Source: Rhodobacteraceae bacterium F11138
Lineage (GTDB): Bacteria > Pseudomonadota > Alphaproteobacteria > Rhodobacterales > Rhodobacteraceae
Length of the DNA: 64,000 nt
Assembly: GCA_016521575.1 (NCBI GenBank)
Contig: JAEKDP010000001.1
Span: forward strand, 1-64,000
Reading direction: 5' to 3'
Part shown: in pieces, positions 54,925 through 63,183 of the stretch
Numbering within the stretch: position 1 is the stretch's first letter
Layout: each line of letters starts with the position of its first letter
The notes under the pieces: model-generated
The model's database searches: none
The model's input: only the letters and a program-made list of their open reading frames with translations
Told to the model about the DNA's origin: nothing
Translations under genes and position numbers: made by a program

Positions 54925-56199
54925 TCACCCGTTTTCGCGCAGCACCGCGCCAGCCAGATACAAGGATCCGCAGATCAACACCCGGCTGGTGGGGTCTTCC
55001 GCCGCGATGGCGCGCAAGGCATCCGCCACGCTGTCCGCCGTATTCGCCTGCATGCCTACGGCCCGCGCCGCGTCTTGTGTGGCTTGGGCGGGCAGGGTGC
55101 TGTCCGCATCCGGGATTGATACCGCCGTCAGCCCCTGCACCTGCGCCGCGAGGGGACGCAGATAGCCCTCCACATCCTTGGTGTTCAGCATCCCGCAGAT
55201 CAGACGCGTGGGCCGCGGCGCAAGGCTGGCCAACACTGCCCCCAGCGCAGCGCCCGCAGCCGCATTGTGACCGCCATCCAGCCACAACTCGCAATCCGGG
55301 GCCAGCTGGACCAGCGGACCGGTGTCCAGTTTCTGCATCCGTGCGGGCCAGTCCGCACGCGTGACCGCCGCCTCATAGGCCGCATCGCCCAGGTCCAGAT
55401 ACCGCAACGCCGCCAGAGCGGTTCCCGCATTGACGATCTGATGCCCGCCCATCAGGTTCGGCAGGGGCAGATCGCGCAACCCTGTTTCGTCCTGATAGAC
55501 CAATCGCCCGCGTTCTTCCTGTACATGCCAATGCTGACCATGCACCAAAAGGGGCGCACCCACACGGCTGGCGACGTTTTCAATCACCACCATCGCCTCT
55601 TCGGCCTGTGGTGCGACGATACAAGGCACGTCTCGCTTCAGGATGCCGGCCTTCTCGAACGCGATCTTGCCCAATGTATCGCCCAGATACTGTTCGTGGT
55701 CGATCGAGATTGGCGTGATCACGGTCAGGCGGGGGGCGGTGACAACGTTGGTGGCATCCAGCCGCCCGCCCAGCCCGACTTCGAGCAGGGTATAATCCGC
55801 ATTCGCCCGCGCAAAGGCCAGCAGGGCCGCGCAGGTCGTGATTTCGAAGTATGTGATCGGCTCGTCGCCGTTGGCAACATGGCATTCATTCAGGATCGCA
55901 CTCAGCGCGGGTTCATCGATCAATGTCCCCGCCAGCCGGATCCGTTCGTGGAACCGCGCCAGATGCGGACTGGTATAGGCGTGGGCGGTATGTCCCGCCG
56001 CCTCGATTCCGGCGAGGATCATCGCCTGGGTCGATCCTTTGCCATTCGTTCCGGCGATATGGATCACGCCCGGCAAGTCATCCTGCGGATTGTCAAGCGC
56101 GGCCAACAGCCGCCAGACCCGGTCCAGCGTCAGATCGATGATCTTGGGGTGCAGGGCCATCATCCGCTCAAGGATGACGTCCGACTTGGGCATGTTCAT
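54925..56199 (-). CDS. folC: Bifunctional dihydrofolate / folylpolyglutamate synthase
   Basis: Mur-ligase-fold enzyme adding glutamate to dihydropteroate and then to folates. The 424-residue product has the P-loop HIAGTNGKGSTQAMILAG near residue 47, the SPHLARFHERIRLAG omega-loop region, the LGGRLDATNVV and SIDHEQYLGDTLGKIAFEKAGI motifs, and a C-terminal domain with LWLDGGHNAAAG. Its start overlaps the accD stop by four bases (ATGA), the well-known accD-folC coupling. Confidence 0.96.
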   Translation of the reverse strand: MNMPKSDVILERMMALHPKIIDLTLDRVWRLLAALDNPQDDLPGVIHIAGTNGKGSTQAMILAGIEAAGHTAHAYTSPHLARFHERIRLAGTLIDEPALSAILNECHVANGDEPITYFEITTCAALLAFARANADYTLLEVGLGGRLDATNVVTAPRLTVITPISIDHEQYLGDTLGKIAFEKAGILKRDVPCIVAPQAEEAMVVIENVASRVGAPLLVHGQHWHVQEERGRLVYQDETGLRDLPLPNLMGGHQIVNAGTALAALRYLDLGDAAYEAAVTRADWPARMQKLDTGPLVQLAPDCELWLDGGHNAAAGAALGAVLASLAPRPTRLICGMLNTKDVEGYLRPLAAQVQGLTAVSIPDADSTLPAQATQDAARAVGMQANTADSVADALRAIAAEDPTSRVLICGSLYLAGAVLRENG

Positions 56200-57161
56200 G
56201 ACGTGGCGGCGGGTTTGTCGGGCGCAGATCCGTCTTTGGGCTGCGTCTGCTTGGGTTTGGCGTCAGGTTTTTGCTTGGGGTCCGGCGCGGGCAAATCGCC
56301 GCGCACCGCAGGGGGCAGCCCCATCAGCATCCGCGTGATGGAAATCAGCTCATCGCGCATCTCCGTGCGCGCCGTGACCCGATCCAGCATGCCGTGATCC
56401 AACAGGTATTCCGCGCGCTGGAACCCTTCTGGCAACCGCTCGCCCAGCGTCTGCTCGATCACCCGTGGTCCGGCAAAGCAGATCAGCGCGTTGGGTTCGG
56501 CGATCTGTACATCCCCCAGCATCGCATAGGACGCGGTGACGCCGCCGGTCGTGGGATGGGTCAGAACCACGATATAGGGCAGCCCGGCCTCTTTCAGCAT
56601 CTGTACCGCGACCGTGCTGCGCGGCATCTGCATCAGGCTCAGAATGCCTTCCTGCATCCGCGCGCCCCCGGCAGCGGAAAACAGGATCAGCGGGCGTTTC
56701 AGCTTGACCGCTTCTTGCGCGGCCGCAACGATCGCGTTGCCGACATACATGCCCATGGATCCGCCCATGAAGCTGAAATCCTGCGCCACCGCCACGATCG
56801 GAGTACGGCCGATCTCTCCGCTGGCGACCAGCATCGCCTCTTTTTCGCCGGTGCTTTTCTGCGCGGCTTTCATCCGTTCGGGATACTTTTTCTGGTCCCG
56901 GAACTGCAGCGGATCCGCAATCGGTTCGGGCACCGAAATTTCCGCGAAGACGCCGCCGTCAAACAGCGCGGTGAAACGATCGCGTGGCGAGATCACCATG
57001 TGATGGCCGCAATTGGTGCAGACGTTCAGATTGTCGCTGAGTTCGCGGTGAAACAGCATGGTGCCGCATTCATCGCATTTCTGCCACAGGTTCTCGGGTG
57101 TCTCGCGGCGCGAAAAAATCGAATTGATCCGCGGGCGGACGTAATTGGTAATCCAGTTCAT
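56196..57161 (-). CDS. accD: Acetyl-CoA carboxylase carboxyltransferase subunit beta
   Basis: Beta half of the carboxyltransferase that makes malonyl-CoA for fatty-acid synthesis. The 321-residue product has the N-terminal zinc ribbon with C29, C32, C48 and C51, then the crotonase-fold core (SFMGGSMGMYVGNAIVAAAQEA, FSAAGGARMQEGILSLMQM, HPTTGGVTASYAMLGD). The C-terminus adds a Pro/Lys-rich tail (PKQKPDAKPKQTQPK) that looks disordered. It precedes folC with a 4-base overlap and follows a CPBP-protease gene by 60 bases. Confidence 0.96.
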   Translation of the reverse strand: MNWITNYVRPRINSIFSRRETPENLWQKCDECGTMLFHRELSDNLNVCTNCGHHMVISPRDRFTALFDGGVFAEISVPEPIADPLQFRDQKKYPERMKAAQKSTGEKEAMLVASGEIGRTPIVAVAQDFSFMGGSMGMYVGNAIVAAAQEAVKLKRPLILFSAAGGARMQEGILSLMQMPRSTVAVQMLKEAGLPYIVVLTHPTTGGVTASYAMLGDVQIAEPNALICFAGPRVIEQTLGERLPEGFQRAEYLLDHGMLDRVTARTEMRDELISITRMLMGLPPAVRGDLPAPDPKQKPDAKPKQTQPKDGSAPDKPAATS

Positions 57162-57221: not shown

Positions 57222-58136
57222 TCAACGAGCAATCACGATCCTGGCTGCCAGCCAGCTGACCAGCATCATCACGAAGTCCACCGCCAGCCACGCGCGCAGC
57301 ACGCCGGTGTCCGACATTCCAAAGGGAAGCGTGTACAGCGCCAATCCGCTCAGGCTGTCGGGCAGCGCCACCACCAGCAGTGCCGTCACATTGTTGAACA
57401 GATGCACCGCAATCGCCGGTCCCAGCGTCCCGGCACGCGCCGTCAGATCCGCCGTCACCAGCCCGAACATCCCGGACCAGACCGCGATCAGCAGGGCGTT
57501 GTCACCCGCTTCGGACGGCAGATAATGGCCCAACGCAAACAGAACAGCCGGCCCCCCCATCCAGATCAACGGGTTGCGGAAACGCGCGGCCAGCGACTGC
57601 TGCAGATACCCGCGAAACAGGATTTCTTCGGCTCCTGTCTGGATCAGTACCGCCAACAGCGACACCGGCAGCAGGATCAGCCACAGTCCCAACCGCAGGT
57701 TCTGGCGCAGCTCAACCCCCATGTCATAGGGCGGCAGAACCAGGATCAGCAGCCCGATCGCCGCCAACACCCGCGCAACCCGCCAGAACTGGCGCAGGGC
57801 AAGCGGCAACGGGCCGATCACCTGACCGAGCGTGCGATCCTGCAACAGACGCACCGCCACGGCCACCCCGATGATGGTGAAACCGAAACTGCCCAACAGA
57901 ACCAACATCGACGCCGGGGTATTGCCCATCCCCGACCCCGGTTCGGCCCCAGGTGCAGCGCCGCCCGCCAGGAACAGATCGGGTGCAAGGGCCGTGAGGA
58001 CCCCATACGCCACCCGGTTCAGCAGTGCCATGATCGCAACCACCACGACCAGCCCGGCGAACAGCCGCCACAGCTGCGGGCGGTGCCGCGCCGGGGCGAC
58101 CAGGTGTTCGTGCGGGGCGTAGGCCGGGTCAGCCAT
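57222..58136 (-). CDS. CPBP-family intramembrane glutamic protease
   Basis: Polytopic membrane protein of the CPBP (CAAX protease and bacteriocin-processing, Abi) family, 304 residues with about eight membrane helices. The catalytic signature is intact: EE at 170-171 in TGAEEILFRGYLQQ, R175, H204 in LFALGHYLPSEAG and H245/N249 in IAVHLFNNV. Family roles include bacteriocin immunity and anti-sigma cleavage; the substrate here is unknown. Its start overlaps the end of the upstream ABC/CNB gene by eight bases, so the two are translationally coupled and may act together at the membrane. accD follows after 60 bases. Confidence 0.88.
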   Translation of the reverse strand: MADPAYAPHEHLVAPARHRPQLWRLFAGLVVVVAIMALLNRVAYGVLTALAPDLFLAGGAAPGAEPGSGMGNTPASMLVLLGSFGFTIIGVAVAVRLLQDRTLGQVIGPLPLALRQFWRVARVLAAIGLLILVLPPYDMGVELRQNLRLGLWLILLPVSLLAVLIQTGAEEILFRGYLQQSLAARFRNPLIWMGGPAVLFALGHYLPSEAGDNALLIAVWSGMFGLVTADLTARAGTLGPAIAVHLFNNVTALLVVALPDSLSGLALYTLPFGMSDTGVLRAWLAVDFVMMLVSWLAARIVIAR

Positions 58137-61100
58137 CCAGCTCGTCCATGATCCGATCCAGAGCCTCGGGAACCGTGTTGTCCGCGCTCAGATCCTTGTA
58201 GTTTATGTTGGACCGGGTCAGGATTTCGGCAACCCCGGCCAGATGCCCGGCGACGGCCTCGAGCAACTGCATCGCCACGGTCACATCGCTTTCAATCACC
58301 GCATAGAGTTCTTCGGCGCCGATGCGCAGGAACAGGGCTTCATCGATCGCAACAAGATCCAGCTGGCGCACTTCTCTGGTGATGATCGAAAGATCACCGA
58401 TCAGCCGTCCCGGTGTGATAATGGACAGGGGCGGCTCATCCGCTGGCTTGTCCGGCCAGCGCAGTTCAGCCGTGCCTTTCAGGCACAGATAGGCGGCATC
58501 CGGAGGTTCACCCTTGCCAAACACGACCTGCCCCGGTTCGGCCTTGAACCATTGCGCCCCGAACGCCAGCAGACGCTGGTTGCGGGCATCCATCTTGGCA
58601 AACAGGTCGGCCTGGGCAATCGCCTTCTGCTTGCGCTGCAGATCGCCGCCGCTGCCGTCCGGTTCAGGCTCCTCGGCCCGCGCCACGCCATTCAGCCGAC
58701 CGTTCTTGATCTCGACAAACAGATCATAGGCATCCGGGTTTTCAAACCGGTCCTCCATGAAGATCAGCGTCGCCCTGGGCAACAGTTCGCGCAGCTTTTC
58801 ACGGGTCTTCTGGCGGCTTGCGCTGTCGTGGCTGGCCAGCGCCTTGTCCAGAATCAGGATGTCGGGACGTTTGATGGCGGCCCGGCTGAACGCGGTGCGT
58901 TCCTGAAACACGGTCGGCAGATTGGTGCCGCCCAAGCCGGTCGGCAGATCGTACATGATTGCGGCCACACGGTGCTCAAGGTCATGTTCTTCCATGATTT
59001 CGGCGACCAGGTTCTCGATATCCTCGGCGCGGGACCCGGCCGCCATCGAGATCCGTCCGTAGAGCGCGTTCTCAAGAACCGTCATGCGTGGGAAATAGAC
59101 ATCCGGCGAAATCGCGATATATTGCCCGCCCACCAGACGGCGCAGATCCTCGGCCTTGGACTGGCGCGCCTTGAGGATTTCATCCTTGAACCGGTCAGGA
59201 AAGCTGGAGCCGATCTGTTCGGCGGTCAGCAGGAAAGGCACGGTCAGCAACAGGGACAATTCGCGTTCGCTCAGGCTCTCGTCACCTTTTTCGCGCCGTT
59301 TCTGCACGATATCCGACAGACGCCGGTACATGTCGTCATCCATGCCCAGCCGTCTGAACAGCGGGTGATCGGTGCCATCCCTGCCAAATGTTCTGGCAAG
59401 AATGTCAATCACTTCCTGGCTGATCGACAGCCCCTCTTCGGCCAGGTTCAATTCGTGCAGAACCCGAATGACCGCGCCGTTCTCGACCAGCATGTCCTGG
59501 GTGATTTCATCGACCGGTGCGGCGAACAGCAGGTTGCCACCCAGCGGAATCGTCGGATTGAACCGCTCGGGATCAAACCGGTACACACATTTGTCCATGC
59601 CGCGTTCTTGCAGGCGGCGATGGATTTCCGGGCGAAGCGCGACGATTTCCTTTGCCAGCGTGCTGTGTTTCTTGGGGTCGAACCGCGACCGCAAGGTGCG
59701 CCGAAACATCGCTTCGTCAATGCCCATCGCCCCGACCAGCTGAAACCACCAGTCCCGGATATCGACACCATCCTTCAACCCCGCCAACCCGGGATCGACC
59801 CATTCCCCTTCGGGCATGTCGGTGCTGTTGCCGGACAACCGTGCCTCGGTGGCGCGGCGGTTCTTGCCTTGCGGATCATACAGCACCGATTGCGGCTTGA
59901 CCTTGAGCGGCATCAGAAGGTTGTCGCCCAGCGTGCCGTCAAACAGGTAGGGCCGGGAATGGGCATAGCCGACCCGCGCCGCGATCACCGCCTGATGCAG
60001 ATCGTTCAACCTGTGCCCGGCCAGCGTGACGCTGCCGCGCACCGGCAGCACCTCGCGGGTCAGCAATTCGGCCAGGGCGCTGCGTTCGACCGCGCTGTTG
60101 CACTGAATTGCCACGCGCGATCCCGCCGGTATGGTCAGGGATACGTCCCCCAGCACCGTGTTGCCATCACTGTCGCGCACGGTCACGTCGTCGATTTCGA
60201 TATCGCCTTGAAGGTGGGGCATCGTGGCGGGTTCGCCCTCGAACAGTTCTTCGGGGATCATGTCGCGCGGCGCAAAGCGTTCGGTCACGATTTCCCAGCG
60301 CAGGCTCATGTCCTGGACCTGATTGTAATAGGTCAACAGCTCTTTCCAGGGGCTGGACAGATCCTTGTAGGCCGCGATTGCCGCCACCAGAGCACCCACA
60401 GTGATATCGCCCCGGATCGCCAGATACCCGCCCACCAGATAGAACATGAACGGCGTCATCTGGGTGATCGTGTTGTTCAGAAACTTCATGAAGAATTTCT
60501 TCTGATAGATCTGAAAACGGATATCGAACAGACGGCCCAACCGGTCGGTCAGCATCGCCAAGCGATAGCGCCAGCCGCCATTGGCGCGCAGATCGCTGAT
60601 GCCCGCAGCACTTTCACCGATCTCGCTGGACAGGTGGCGGATCTCTACGATCCGGTCCTTGTTGAGCAGGTTGATCTGACGCTGCAGGCGCGGGATCAGC
60701 CAAGCTTGCAGCGGAATCAGCGCAATACTGGCCAGCCCGAACCAGACGCTTTGCATGAACAGAAAGAACACGATGGTCATCATCTGGCCGAACTGGAACG
60801 CCGGTTGCGCCACCGCATCGCCCATCAACCCGCCCATGGGTTCGGCCTCGGACGTGATCATCGACACCAGTTCGCCCTGGCTGGTGTTGCGGAAATAGGG
60901 CCGCGGAAACCGCATCATGCGACTGATCAGCTGATATCGCAGCCGTCGCAGCATACGTTCGGACAGCACCCCCTTCATCGTGTTGACCCGCATCTTCATC
61001 AACCCGGCGACGATCACCGTGCCCAGGAACAGCAGGCACAACAGCAGCAGGTATTGCACCTGGCTCAGCTGGACGCCCCACAGATCGACCCGATTGCTGG

Positions 61101-61245
61101 TCGCCCCGATGGCATCGTTGATGATCATCTTGGGCAGTTCCAGCGAGGCATAAAGAAACGGGAACGTGATTACCGTGACCAGCAACAGGATCAGTTGCCG
61201 GCGCTTGGAGTACTTCCAGATGAACGAAAATAAGGTGGGTTCCAT
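58129..61245 (-). CDS. ABC-exporter-like protein with degenerate ATPase and C-terminal CNB-like domain
   Basis: Inner-membrane protein of 1038 residues (start MEPTLFSFIWKYSKRRQ at 61245). Residues 1-325 form a type-I ABC exporter membrane domain with about six helices. An ABC-like domain begins near 347 but lacks all catalytic motifs. The Walker A position reads QCNSAVERSA (381-390), the Walker B glutamate is Lys801 in LILDKA, LSGGQ is replaced by VFQERTAF (779-786), and the switch His is Glu831 in FMEDRF. About 275 residues (445-720) interrupt the domain. Residues 895-1015 resemble a cyclic-nucleotide-binding domain (GEPPDAAYLCLKGTAELRW, GRLIGDLSIITREVRQLDL). An ATP-driven pump is unlikely; a ligand-gated or scaffolding role is possible. 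It overlaps the CPBP gene by eight bases. Confidence 0.85.
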   Translation of the reverse strand: MEPTLFSFIWKYSKRRQLILLLVTVITFPFLYASLELPKMIINDAIGATSNRVDLWGVQLSQVQYLLLLCLLFLGTVIVAGLMKMRVNTMKGVLSERMLRRLRYQLISRMMRFPRPYFRNTSQGELVSMITSEAEPMGGLMGDAVAQPAFQFGQMMTIVFFLFMQSVWFGLASIALIPLQAWLIPRLQRQINLLNKDRIVEIRHLSSEIGESAAGISDLRANGGWRYRLAMLTDRLGRLFDIRFQIYQKKFFMKFLNNTITQMTPFMFYLVGGYLAIRGDITVGALVAAIAAYKDLSSPWKELLTYYNQVQDMSLRWEIVTERFAPRDMIPEELFEGEPATMPHLQGDIEIDDVTVRDSDGNTVLGDVSLTIPAGSRVAIQCNSAVERSALAELLTREVLPVRGSVTLAGHRLNDLHQAVIAARVGYAHSRPYLFDGTLGDNLLMPLKVKPQSVLYDPQGKNRRATEARLSGNSTDMPEGEWVDPGLAGLKDGVDIRDWWFQLVGAMGIDEAMFRRTLRSRFDPKKHSTLAKEIVALRPEIHRRLQERGMDKCVYRFDPERFNPTIPLGGNLLFAAPVDEITQDMLVENGAVIRVLHELNLAEEGLSISQEVIDILARTFGRDGTDHPLFRRLGMDDDMYRRLSDIVQKRREKGDESLSERELSLLLTVPFLLTAEQIGSSFPDRFKDEILKARQSKAEDLRRLVGGQYIAISPDVYFPRMTVLENALYGRISMAAGSRAEDIENLVAEIMEEHDLEHRVAAIMYDLPTGLGGTNLPTVFQERTAFSRAAIKRPDILILDKALASHDSASRQKTREKLRELLPRATLIFMEDRFENPDAYDLFVEIKNGRLNGVARAEEPEPDGSGGDLQRKQKAIAQADLFAKMDARNQRLLAFGAQWFKAEPGQVVFGKGEPPDAAYLCLKGTAELRWPDKPADEPPLSIITPGRLIGDLSIITREVRQLDLVAIDEALFLRIGAEELYAVIESDVTVAMQLLEAVAGHLAGVAEILTRSNINYKDLSADNTVPEALDRIMDELDG

Positions 61246-61361
61246 CACCCGGCCCTCGGCGTTGTCAATGTTGCGAGTCGCACCCGGAACGCCCGGTCCC
61301 AGCGATCCGGAAACGGTAATCATTGCGCTCTGCAATTACAAGATGTGCGCCGCCTTCAGAC

Positions 61362-61390
61362 TTGTACACCGCCCGGCGCAGGGCTATTCC
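61362..61390 (+). promoter_or_regulatory. Predicted ilvD promoter
   Basis: TTGTAC (61362-61367), a 17-base spacer and TATTCC (61385-61390) stand 29 bases before the ilvD ATG. Spacing is ideal and the boxes are moderate matches. It lies in the divergent gap with the ABC/CNB gene. No leader peptide rich in Ile/Val/Leu was seen. Confidence 0.4.
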
Positions 61391-61419
61391 CGATACAGCC
61401 AGAAAACCGGAGACCAACC

Positions 61420-63183
61420 ATGCTCAAGCCCCCGTTCGACAAGACCAGATTGCCCAGCCGCCACGTCACCGAGGGCCCCGAGCGCGCGCCGCATCGTTCG
61501 TATATGTACGCGATGGGCGTCAGCGACGAGGAAATCCACCAGCCGCTGGTCGGTGTCGCCACCTGCTGGAACGAGGCCGCGCCCTGCAACATTTCGCTGA
61601 ACCGGCAGGCCCAGGCGGTCAAGCTGGGGGTCAAGGCCGCATCCGGCACACCGCGCGAATTTACCACCATCACCGTCACCGACGGCATCGCCATGGGCCA
61701 CGAAGGCATGCGCAGCAGCCTGGCCAGCCGCGAAGCGATTGCCGACACGGTCGAGTTGACCATGCGCGGCCATTGCTATGACGCGCTGGTCGGGCTGGCG
61801 GGCTGCGACAAATCGCTGCCCGGCATGATGATGGCGATGGTGCGCCTGAACACGCCATCGGTCTTCATCTATGGTGGTTCGATCCTGCCGGGCAAGGCAC
61901 CGCAGATTGATGAAATTCCAGAAGATTTCCGCACCCGCGACCTGACCGTTCAGGACATGTTCGAAGCCGTGGGCCGCCATCAGAACGGCACCATGTCGGA
62001 CGCCGCGCTGGACATGCTGGAGCGGGTGGCCTGCCCTAGCGCCGGGGCCTGTGGCGGCCAGTTCACCGCCAACACCATGGCCTGTGTTTCCGAAGCGATC
62101 GGTCTGGCGCTGATGAACAGTTCGGGCATGCCCGCCCCATACGAAAGCCGCGATCAATTCGCCGAGGCATCCGGGCAGGCGGTGATGAACCTGTTGGAAA
62201 AGAACATTCGCGCCCGCGATGTCGTGACCCGAAAATCGCTGGAAAACGCCGCCCGCGTGGTTGCCTGCACTGGCGGTTCGACCAATGCGGGACTGCACCT
62301 GCCCGCGATTGCCCATGAGGCCGGCATCGATTTCTTCCTGCAGGATGTATGCGACATCTTCCGAGACACGCCCTATTTCGTCGATCTGAAGCCGGGCGGC
62401 CAATATGTCGCCAAAGATCTCTATGACGCGGGCGGCATTCCGGTCGTGATGAAGGAATTGCGCAAAGCCGGGCTGATCCACGAAGACTGCATGACCGCCA
62501 CCGGCCGCACCATCGGCGAAGAACTGGACATGATCAACCGCGAGGCGGACGGTAAGGTGATCCATGCCATCGACACCCCGCTGACCAAGACCGGCGGCGT
62601 GGTGGGTCTGAAAGGCAACCTTGCCCCCGAAGGTGCCATCGTCAAGGTCGCGGGCATCCCGTCCAACCATCAGCGGTTCGTCGGTCCCGCGCGTGTCTTC
62701 GAATGCGAAGAGGACGCGTTCGACGCCGTCAAGGCACGCGGCTATGAAGAAGGCGAAGTCATCGTGATCCGCAACGAAGGCCCCGCCGGTGGCCCCGGCA
62801 TGCGCGAAATGCTGGCGACCACCGCCGCGCTGTCCGGCCAGGGCATGGGCAAGAAGGTCGCGCTGATCACCGACGGACGTTTCTCGGGCGCAACCCGCGG
62901 TTTCTGTGTCGGCCATGTCGGCCCCGAAGCCGCGCAGGGCGGCCCCATCGCGCTGCTCAAGACCGGCGATATCATCACCATCGACGCGCCCAACGGCGAA
63001 ATCAGCGTCGATCTGAGCGACGAAGAACTGACCGCCCGCAAGGCCGACTGGAAAGGCCCGCGCGATACGATCTATGCCTCGGGCGCGCTTTGGAAGTACG
63101 CCCAACTGGTCGGCGCCACCTACAAAGGTGCCGTCACCCATCCGGGCGGTGACGCGGAAAAACACATCTACATGGATCTCTGA
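61420..63183 (+). CDS. ilvD: Dihydroxy-acid dehydratase
   Basis: Iron-sulfur dehydratase that makes the 2-oxo acids leading to valine, leucine and isoleucine. The start at 61420 follows GGAGA and gives MLKPPFDKTRLPSRHVTEGP, 587 residues. Candidate cluster cysteines are C56 (AAPCNISL), C129 (LAGCDKSLPG) and C211 (GACGGQF). The C-terminal ITDGRFSGATRGFCVGHVGPEAA is the IlvD/Edd signature, and residue context favours IlvD over phosphogluconate dehydratase. It is followed by a 10-bp hairpin. Confidence 0.95.
   Translation: MLKPPFDKTRLPSRHVTEGPERAPHRSYMYAMGVSDEEIHQPLVGVATCWNEAAPCNISLNRQAQAVKLGVKAASGTPREFTTITVTDGIAMGHEGMRSSLASREAIADTVELTMRGHCYDALVGLAGCDKSLPGMMMAMVRLNTPSVFIYGGSILPGKAPQIDEIPEDFRTRDLTVQDMFEAVGRHQNGTMSDAALDMLERVACPSAGACGGQFTANTMACVSEAIGLALMNSSGMPAPYESRDQFAEASGQAVMNLLEKNIRARDVVTRKSLENAARVVACTGGSTNAGLHLPAIAHEAGIDFFLQDVCDIFRDTPYFVDLKPGGQYVAKDLYDAGGIPVVMKELRKAGLIHEDCMTATGRTIGEELDMINREADGKVIHAIDTPLTKTGGVVGLKGNLAPEGAIVKVAGIPSNHQRFVGPARVFECEEDAFDAVKARGYEEGEVIVIRNEGPAGGPGMREMLATTAALSGQGMGKKVALITDGRFSGATRGFCVGHVGPEAAQGGPIALLKTGDIITIDAPNGEISVDLSDEELTARKADWKGPRDTIYASGALWKYAQLVGATYKGAVTHPGGDAEKHIYMDL

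Follow-up and report, generated by a model that had tools for sequence, protein, structure and literature searches.

Within the first 64,000 nucleotides of contig JAEKDP010000001.1 of Rhodobacteraceae bacterium F11138 (the whole stretch analysed, hereafter the window), a minus-strand gene at 58129..61245, delimited from its open reading frame, Pfam matches and 333 relatives, encodes a 1038-residue protein (plus stop codon) that is built like an ATP-binding cassette (ABC) exporter and, judging from its sequence, has very probably lost ATP hydrolysis. We infer that this pseudo-ABC exporter may be an ATP-independent transporter or gate on an ABC-exporter frame, in which a cyclic-nucleotide sensor would replace control by ATP, and we give this reading a probability of roughly 0.45. 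All parts of the gene described below lie on the minus strand.

The frame runs from 61245 to 58129 through 1038 codons with no internal stop, in agreement with an earlier note on this DNA that had described it as long and intact, and the column of M1 (ATG at 61245) is invariant in the 70-row alignment A1, the rows of which were trimmed to begin with the match. Pfam places ABC_membrane at residues 54-290 (4.3e-18), which bears out the exporter-like membrane half claimed in that note, ABC_tran in two separate stretches, the best at 366-460 (1.1e-7), and cNMP_binding (PF00027) at 902-987 (8.8e-11, passing the curated cut-off); the protein thus has both the ABC_membrane domain and the nucleotide-binding domain (NBD) fold by which type IV ABC exporters are recognized. 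Its most conserved part is the transmembrane domain (residues 1-326, 60268..61245), followed by the N-terminal half of a degenerate NBD (343-445, 59911..60219), an insert of about 270 residues within the NBD (446-716, 59098..59910), the C-terminal NBD half (717-855, 58681..59097) and the cyclic-nucleotide-binding domain (902-987, 58285..58542). The middle of the insert (545-620) is similar to the stretch preceding the signature (698-775), making it a partly duplicated module. The profile search proposed in the note did match ABC families; the note itself had overlooked the insert, the cyclic-nucleotide domain and another dead paralogue that the genome carries. A 996-residue frame is also open on the opposite strand (58243-61233, +), and this is taken as a presumed by-product of composition.

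The names and roles of the ABC motifs are established, and we read their positions in the window protein from an alignment with three working exporters that this genome also encodes. At the A-loop position (residue 358, 60172..60174) Asp stands for the adenine-stacking Tyr. The Walker A position (382-389, 60079..60102) reads CNSAVERS, with C382, A385, E387 and R388 in place of the three Gly and the Lys, so that the GxxGxGK(S/T) consensus is absent, and the Q-loop Gln is S430. Where LSGGQ is expected (776-780, 58906..58920) the protein has LPTVF, that is, P-T-V-F for S-G-G-Q. The Walker B position (797-802, 58840..58857) is LILDKA, in which the Asp is kept and the catalytic Glu has become K801, and the switch His is likewise gone, replaced by D832 (58750..58752). 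What is retained is S389 of the Walker A Ser/Thr position, D800 of Walker B and D807 of the D-loop. The earlier claim of an ATPase site dead in every motif was therefore right for Walker A, the catalytic Glu, LSGGQ and the switch His, too broad for Walker B, whose Asp survives, and too narrow in passing over the A-loop and Q-loop.

These losses are shared well beyond the window. Full-length members were divided, according to how similar they are in sequence identity to the window protein, into a 'ros' group (at least 47%, n = 120 including the window) and a 'deep' group (below 47%, n = 84, of which 28 were added later to an initial 56); at 99% identity the 204 members form 203 clusters, and the 120 ros sequences 119. 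Not one of the 120 ros members has the Walker A Lys, the Q-loop Gln, the second signature Gly, the catalytic Glu or the switch His; the third Walker A Gly is lost in all 120, and the first two are kept in only 1 and 3, respectively. More than four of the eight scored site residues were kept in none of the 193 members reaching the switch region, a count from which 11 members truncated by the end of the fetched DNA are dropped. Intact motifs in close relatives, the finding that the earlier note had named as contrary to its view, did not occur in the 120 sequences of at least 47% identity, and the alignment of homologues it had called for revealed a loss common to all of them and to the paralogue that the window genome also carries. 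Cumulatively, the sequences show a nucleotide site that is degenerate in every member examined, with frame, fold and membrane domain kept under selection.

In one deep lineage (L246-L251, L253, L254) the position of the Walker A Lys holds Ala or Gly, and in others Arg or Lys. Because the residue at this position differs between lineages, the data suggest that the nucleotide site eroded separately in different branches.

A site that no longer hydrolyses ATP could still bind it as a structural or regulatory ligand, and the retention of S389, D800 and D807 in the window, together with the Lys or Walker B residues kept in several deep members, would fit such a role. The adenine-stacking position argues otherwise: an aromatic A-loop residue was found in 0 of the 204 members, 199 of which have Asp (138), Asn (30), Glu (21), Ser (6) or Thr (4), the remainder being Gly (3), Ala (1) and a gap (1). 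With the Walker A Lys and third Gly also gone from all 120 ros sequences and the first two Gly nearly so, we regard bound, unhydrolysed ATP as improbable.

The membrane part, by contrast with the site, is tightly constrained. By the Nei-Gojobori method, the ratio of non-synonymous to synonymous substitution rates (dN/dS) between the window gene and three near relatives (L009, L010, L011) is 0.16-0.24 for the whole gene, 0.08-0.12 for the membrane domain, 0.175-0.35 for the NBD parts and insert, and up to 0.80 for the short linker 856-870, so the frame is evidently under purifying selection. Among 94 sequences of at least 56% identity, the membrane domain averages 77.8% pairwise identity, the first and second NBD halves 64.0% and 59.2% and the insert 52.9%. 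For comparison we took a working exporter present in the window genome and in 20 of the 23 others holding a window-type copy: in these 21 genomes its membrane domain and NBD have mean pairwise identities of 67.9% and 79.2%, as against 77.7% for the membrane domain, 66.9% and 61.7% for the NBD halves and 52.8% for the insert of the window-type copies. Conservation is thus inverted relative to a working exporter, constraint having shifted from the engine to the membrane part. In the membrane domain of the 204 members, conservation reaches at least 93% at 26 positions that hold a charged residue or Asn; 16 of these occur in none of three canonical exporters, to which the alignment is weak (about 20% identity).

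A pseudogene or a sequencing artefact would also account for the simultaneous loss of all motifs. We find this explanation scarcely credible, given purifying selection and 119 relatives with open frames and the same losses; since all 120 ros sequences lack the same catalytic residues, the pattern is not one of decay, and selection for a non-ATPase function, as the earlier note had put it, is upheld.

From the distribution of its sequences, the family is one of full-length ABC-exporter-like proteins mainly in Alphaproteobacteria. At the level of the class 96 of 289 genomes had a match at E<=1e-60, at that of the family 40 of 198 and, with the deep-clade member L160 as query, at that of the phylum 28 of 398; these counts include fragments and membrane-domain-only matches. 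The best 80 of the 333 relatives from the genome contig scan, which were the ones retained, carry mostly Roseobacter-group names, with a few labelled as Gammaproteobacteria (Moritella, Chromatiales, Granulosicoccus). Under these labels stand full-length dead-NBD members of 55-57% identity (L078, L082, L084, L086, L087), which suggests either that the gene has passed from the Roseobacter group into other lineages or that the contigs were mis-binned.

The C-terminal domain offers a candidate for what took over from ATP. Its nearest sequence in the PDB is a chain of 5d1i named 'cyclic nucleotide-binding protein' (5e-8), and the phosphate-binding cassette, which we take to follow the pattern G-E-(L/I)...R, has its Gly in 120 of 120 and its Arg in 119 of 120 ros members, most of which have Asp at the Glu position; in the seven fused deep members scored, all three cassette residues are canonical. 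Rhizobium and Mesorhizobium encode the domain in a gene of its own immediately downstream, and in many further genomes the match crosses one stop codon into a separate cyclic-nucleotide gene. Because one lineage carries the domain fused and another has it as an adjacent gene, a functional link between it and the ABC part is indicated. Of the roles that the earlier note had put forward (gated channel, receptor or partner scaffold), its presence favours a regulated gate or a receptor.

Relatives that have dispensed with the NBD altogether point in the same direction as the inverted conservation. Proteins of 400-434 residues on Phaeobacter and Pseudosulfitobacter plasmids match the window protein over only about residues 1-325, and further NBD-less matches lie on Sulfitobacter and Leisingera plasmids. 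The eight that we aligned (33-42% identity) all stop after the membrane domain and form one clade in a quick tree (SH-like approximate likelihood ratio test, SH-aLRT, 97). Their first cytosolic loop is 4 residues shorter and their second 4-9 shorter; in exporters the two cytosolic loops, assigned here by position, contact the NBD. Of the 26 conserved membrane-domain positions, 21 are identical in at least seven of the eight. The existence of such proteins means that relatives of the window membrane domain can dispense with an NBD. In the three records examined the NBD-less gene lies within a copper operon that also encodes TolC, a copper oxidase, a copper-binding protein and cytochrome c, and copper genes adjoin seven more such relatives (L085, L213-L216, L328, L329); taken with L151, L152 and L153, the copper-oxidase and copper-binding neighbours are found on plasmids and on other contigs. 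On the conjugative Phaeobacter inhibens plasmid of L153, a synthase of the cyclic oligonucleotide-based antiphage signalling system (CBASS) and a phospholipase are annotated as a pair (480-2911) beside the copper operon. A further set of short frames (L320-L327; 323-401 residues, 25-31% identity to the membrane domain) occurs in several Alphaproteobacteria, and the glycan and copper genes probed were not adjoining there, one importer-ATPase match in L323 apart.

Immediately downstream of the ABC gene, and overlapping it by 8 bases, is a gene for a CPBP (Rce1-like) intramembrane protease (57222..58136, -), in which EEILFR, FALGH and HLFNN, presumably the catalytic motifs, are present. It is followed by the conserved neighbours accD (56196..57161, -) and folC (54925..56199, -), and ilvD (61345..63183, +) lies divergently on the other side. 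Over 81 loci (L009-L089), some of which end short of the neighbours, ilvD was found in 53, CPBP in 66, accD in 68 and folC in 66, with ilvD and CPBP together in 50 and none of the four in 12. The frames of the ABC and CPBP genes overlap in 47 of the 65 loci tested, taking the start codon closest to the expected one.

This arrangement bears on the main rival to our proposal, a signalling receptor or scaffold that transports nothing: the membrane domain would sense an envelope ligand, and the dead NBD and cyclic-nucleotide domain would relay this to partners, for example the CPBP protease encoded alongside or enzymes acting on glycans. The recurrent overlap with a protease whose motifs are present, the cyclic-nucleotide domain itself and the glycan clusters around relatives (below) are all in keeping with it. 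The tightest constraint, however, falls on the membrane domain, and membrane-domain-only relatives persist without an NBD; these observations fit a transport path at least equally well, and we judge a pure receptor or scaffold unlikely, if a serious contender.

The setting of more distant members is different. In many deep members the gene is accompanied by glycosyltransferases, a histidine phosphatase, a polysaccharide deacetylase, a peptide-type ABC importer, a methyltransferase and a cyclic-nucleotide gene, a setting shared by a Sulfitobacter dubius plasmid copy (56% identity) and in part by L086 and L209. At least two cluster glycosyltransferases were present in 27 of 40 regions around members below 47% identity (regions picked by hand, of up to 19 kilobases (kb), with probe proteins from the neighbourhoods of named relatives), in 1 of 16 regions of the paralogue-B type, and in none of 20 arbitrarily placed 19-kb control regions from 20 of those genomes. 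The cluster is widely conserved (L159-L163, L167-L173, L177-L190, L194) and occurs in the window genome itself (G000:C22, 23.0-40.3 kb), where the second dead copy lies on the same contig at 47.1-50.1 kb. We read the family as ancestrally glycan-linked and the window copy as having moved away from that setting.

The second copy raises the question of partners. Among type IV exporters a degenerate half is commonly paired with an active one, and the window protein could be a heterodimer half that borrows the ATPase of a working half-transporter; TM287/288 and TmrAB are among its matches, and all 24 genomes with a full-length copy of at least 57% identity, its own included, carry another copy that is complete or almost so in length (a hand count over the family-level scan). 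Yet in a composite site one half supplies Walker A, Walker B and the His while its partner supplies the signature, and the paralogue in the window genome is degenerate at the same motifs, leaving both copies without both sets; the next-best matches in that genome are 20-31% identical over part of the length only. A borrowed ATPase is therefore very unlikely, though a partner unrelated to these copies might be encoded elsewhere.

In our own proposal, which needs no ATP, the type IV exporter membrane domain, in which an array of conserved charged residues is specific to the family, would move or gate a probably anionic envelope substrate, driven by the proton motive force or by movement down a gradient. 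The dead NBD dimer and its insert might act as a cytosolic clamp positioned by the C-terminal cyclic-nucleotide domain, and not by ATP, with the NBD relaying the state of that domain; the window protein may pair with the second dead copy. Conserved basic residues together with the glycan cluster suggest that deep-group members handle an anionic envelope compound, one that may be lipid-linked, and in the ancestral setting the substrate could be a lipid-linked glycan precursor or a lipid head group.

Several observations weigh against this proposal. Walker A Ser/Thr is retained in 59 and Walker B Asp in 89 of the 120 ros members, and of the 73 deep members reaching the switch region 33 retain the Lys, 29 the Glu and 17 the His, so that ATP binding or slow hydrolysis may persist in the deep group. 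Asp takes the place of the cassette Glu in 101 of the 120 ros members, the window protein among them (Glu in 19), and ligand binding may therefore be altered. Ten of the 26 conserved membrane-domain positions match at least one of the three canonical exporters in the same weak alignment (~20% identity), and the membrane model has a predicted local distance difference test score (pLDDT) below 50 at 148-175 and 295-300. Finally, the glycan genes are missing from 13 of the 40 deep regions, 15 of the 16 paralogue-B regions and all 61 loci L009-L069 (flank at most 5 kb), so the substrate inference does not transfer directly to regions of this kind.

A broader possibility, which we hold tentatively, is that an ABC lineage abandoned ATP in stages, apparently separately from SbmA, and that its full-length form is a cyclic-nucleotide-gated 'pseudo-ABC' transporter. 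The stages would be a partly degenerate NBD in distant members, a fully dead NBD with a built-in cyclic-nucleotide switch in the window subfamily, and the membrane domain alone, its loops towards the NBD shortened, in copper operons. Since close and distant relatives share the loss of the ATPase site, often with a cyclic-nucleotide sensor, the family may show how an ATP-driven pump becomes something else, touching the open question of how coupling between NBD and membrane domain is lost and replaced, with possible living intermediates in cultivable, manipulable rhizobia and roseobacters. If a cyclic nucleotide has indeed replaced ATP as the cytosolic control, the membrane domain could be studied as an ATP-free transporter, and a role would be at hand for genes that are at present annotated either as 'ABC transporter transmembrane domain-containing protein' or as 'ABC transporter ATP-binding protein', the latter label being then misleading.

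Degenerate or ATP-free ABC folds are already known; among the titles and abstracts listed by full-text literature searches of limited coverage, none describes the present family. With the type IV (B-family) exporters PCAT1, MsbA, TmrAB and TM287/288 the window protein shares the six-helix membrane domain and the NBD fold, and the family differs from them in having no intact nucleotide site in the members examined, in its inverted conservation, in the insert of about 270 residues and in the fused or adjacent cyclic-nucleotide domain. The ABC fold also serves a non-pump role in CFTR and SUR, and SUR2 chains are among the matches to the window protein; to our knowledge, however, these and other degenerate-site ABC proteins keep nucleotide binding, whereas the window protein is changed at nearly every site position and has a cyclic-nucleotide domain. 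Conserved acidic residues are present in the membrane domain of the family. As described in PMC13316013, the SbmA/BacA (SLiPT) secondary peptide transporters use an ABC-exporter membrane domain without ATP, having lost the NBD and coupling helices and being proton-driven. Our NBD-less relatives resemble them in lacking the NBD and in their shortened cytosolic loops, whereas the window protein, with a folded NBD and full-length loops, falls outside a class defined by the absence of NBD and coupling helices. PMC10710835 describes a transporter core with a regulatory cyclic-nucleotide-binding domain, an architecture like that of the window protein, yet built on another fold, the sensor there having been added to a different class of transporter.

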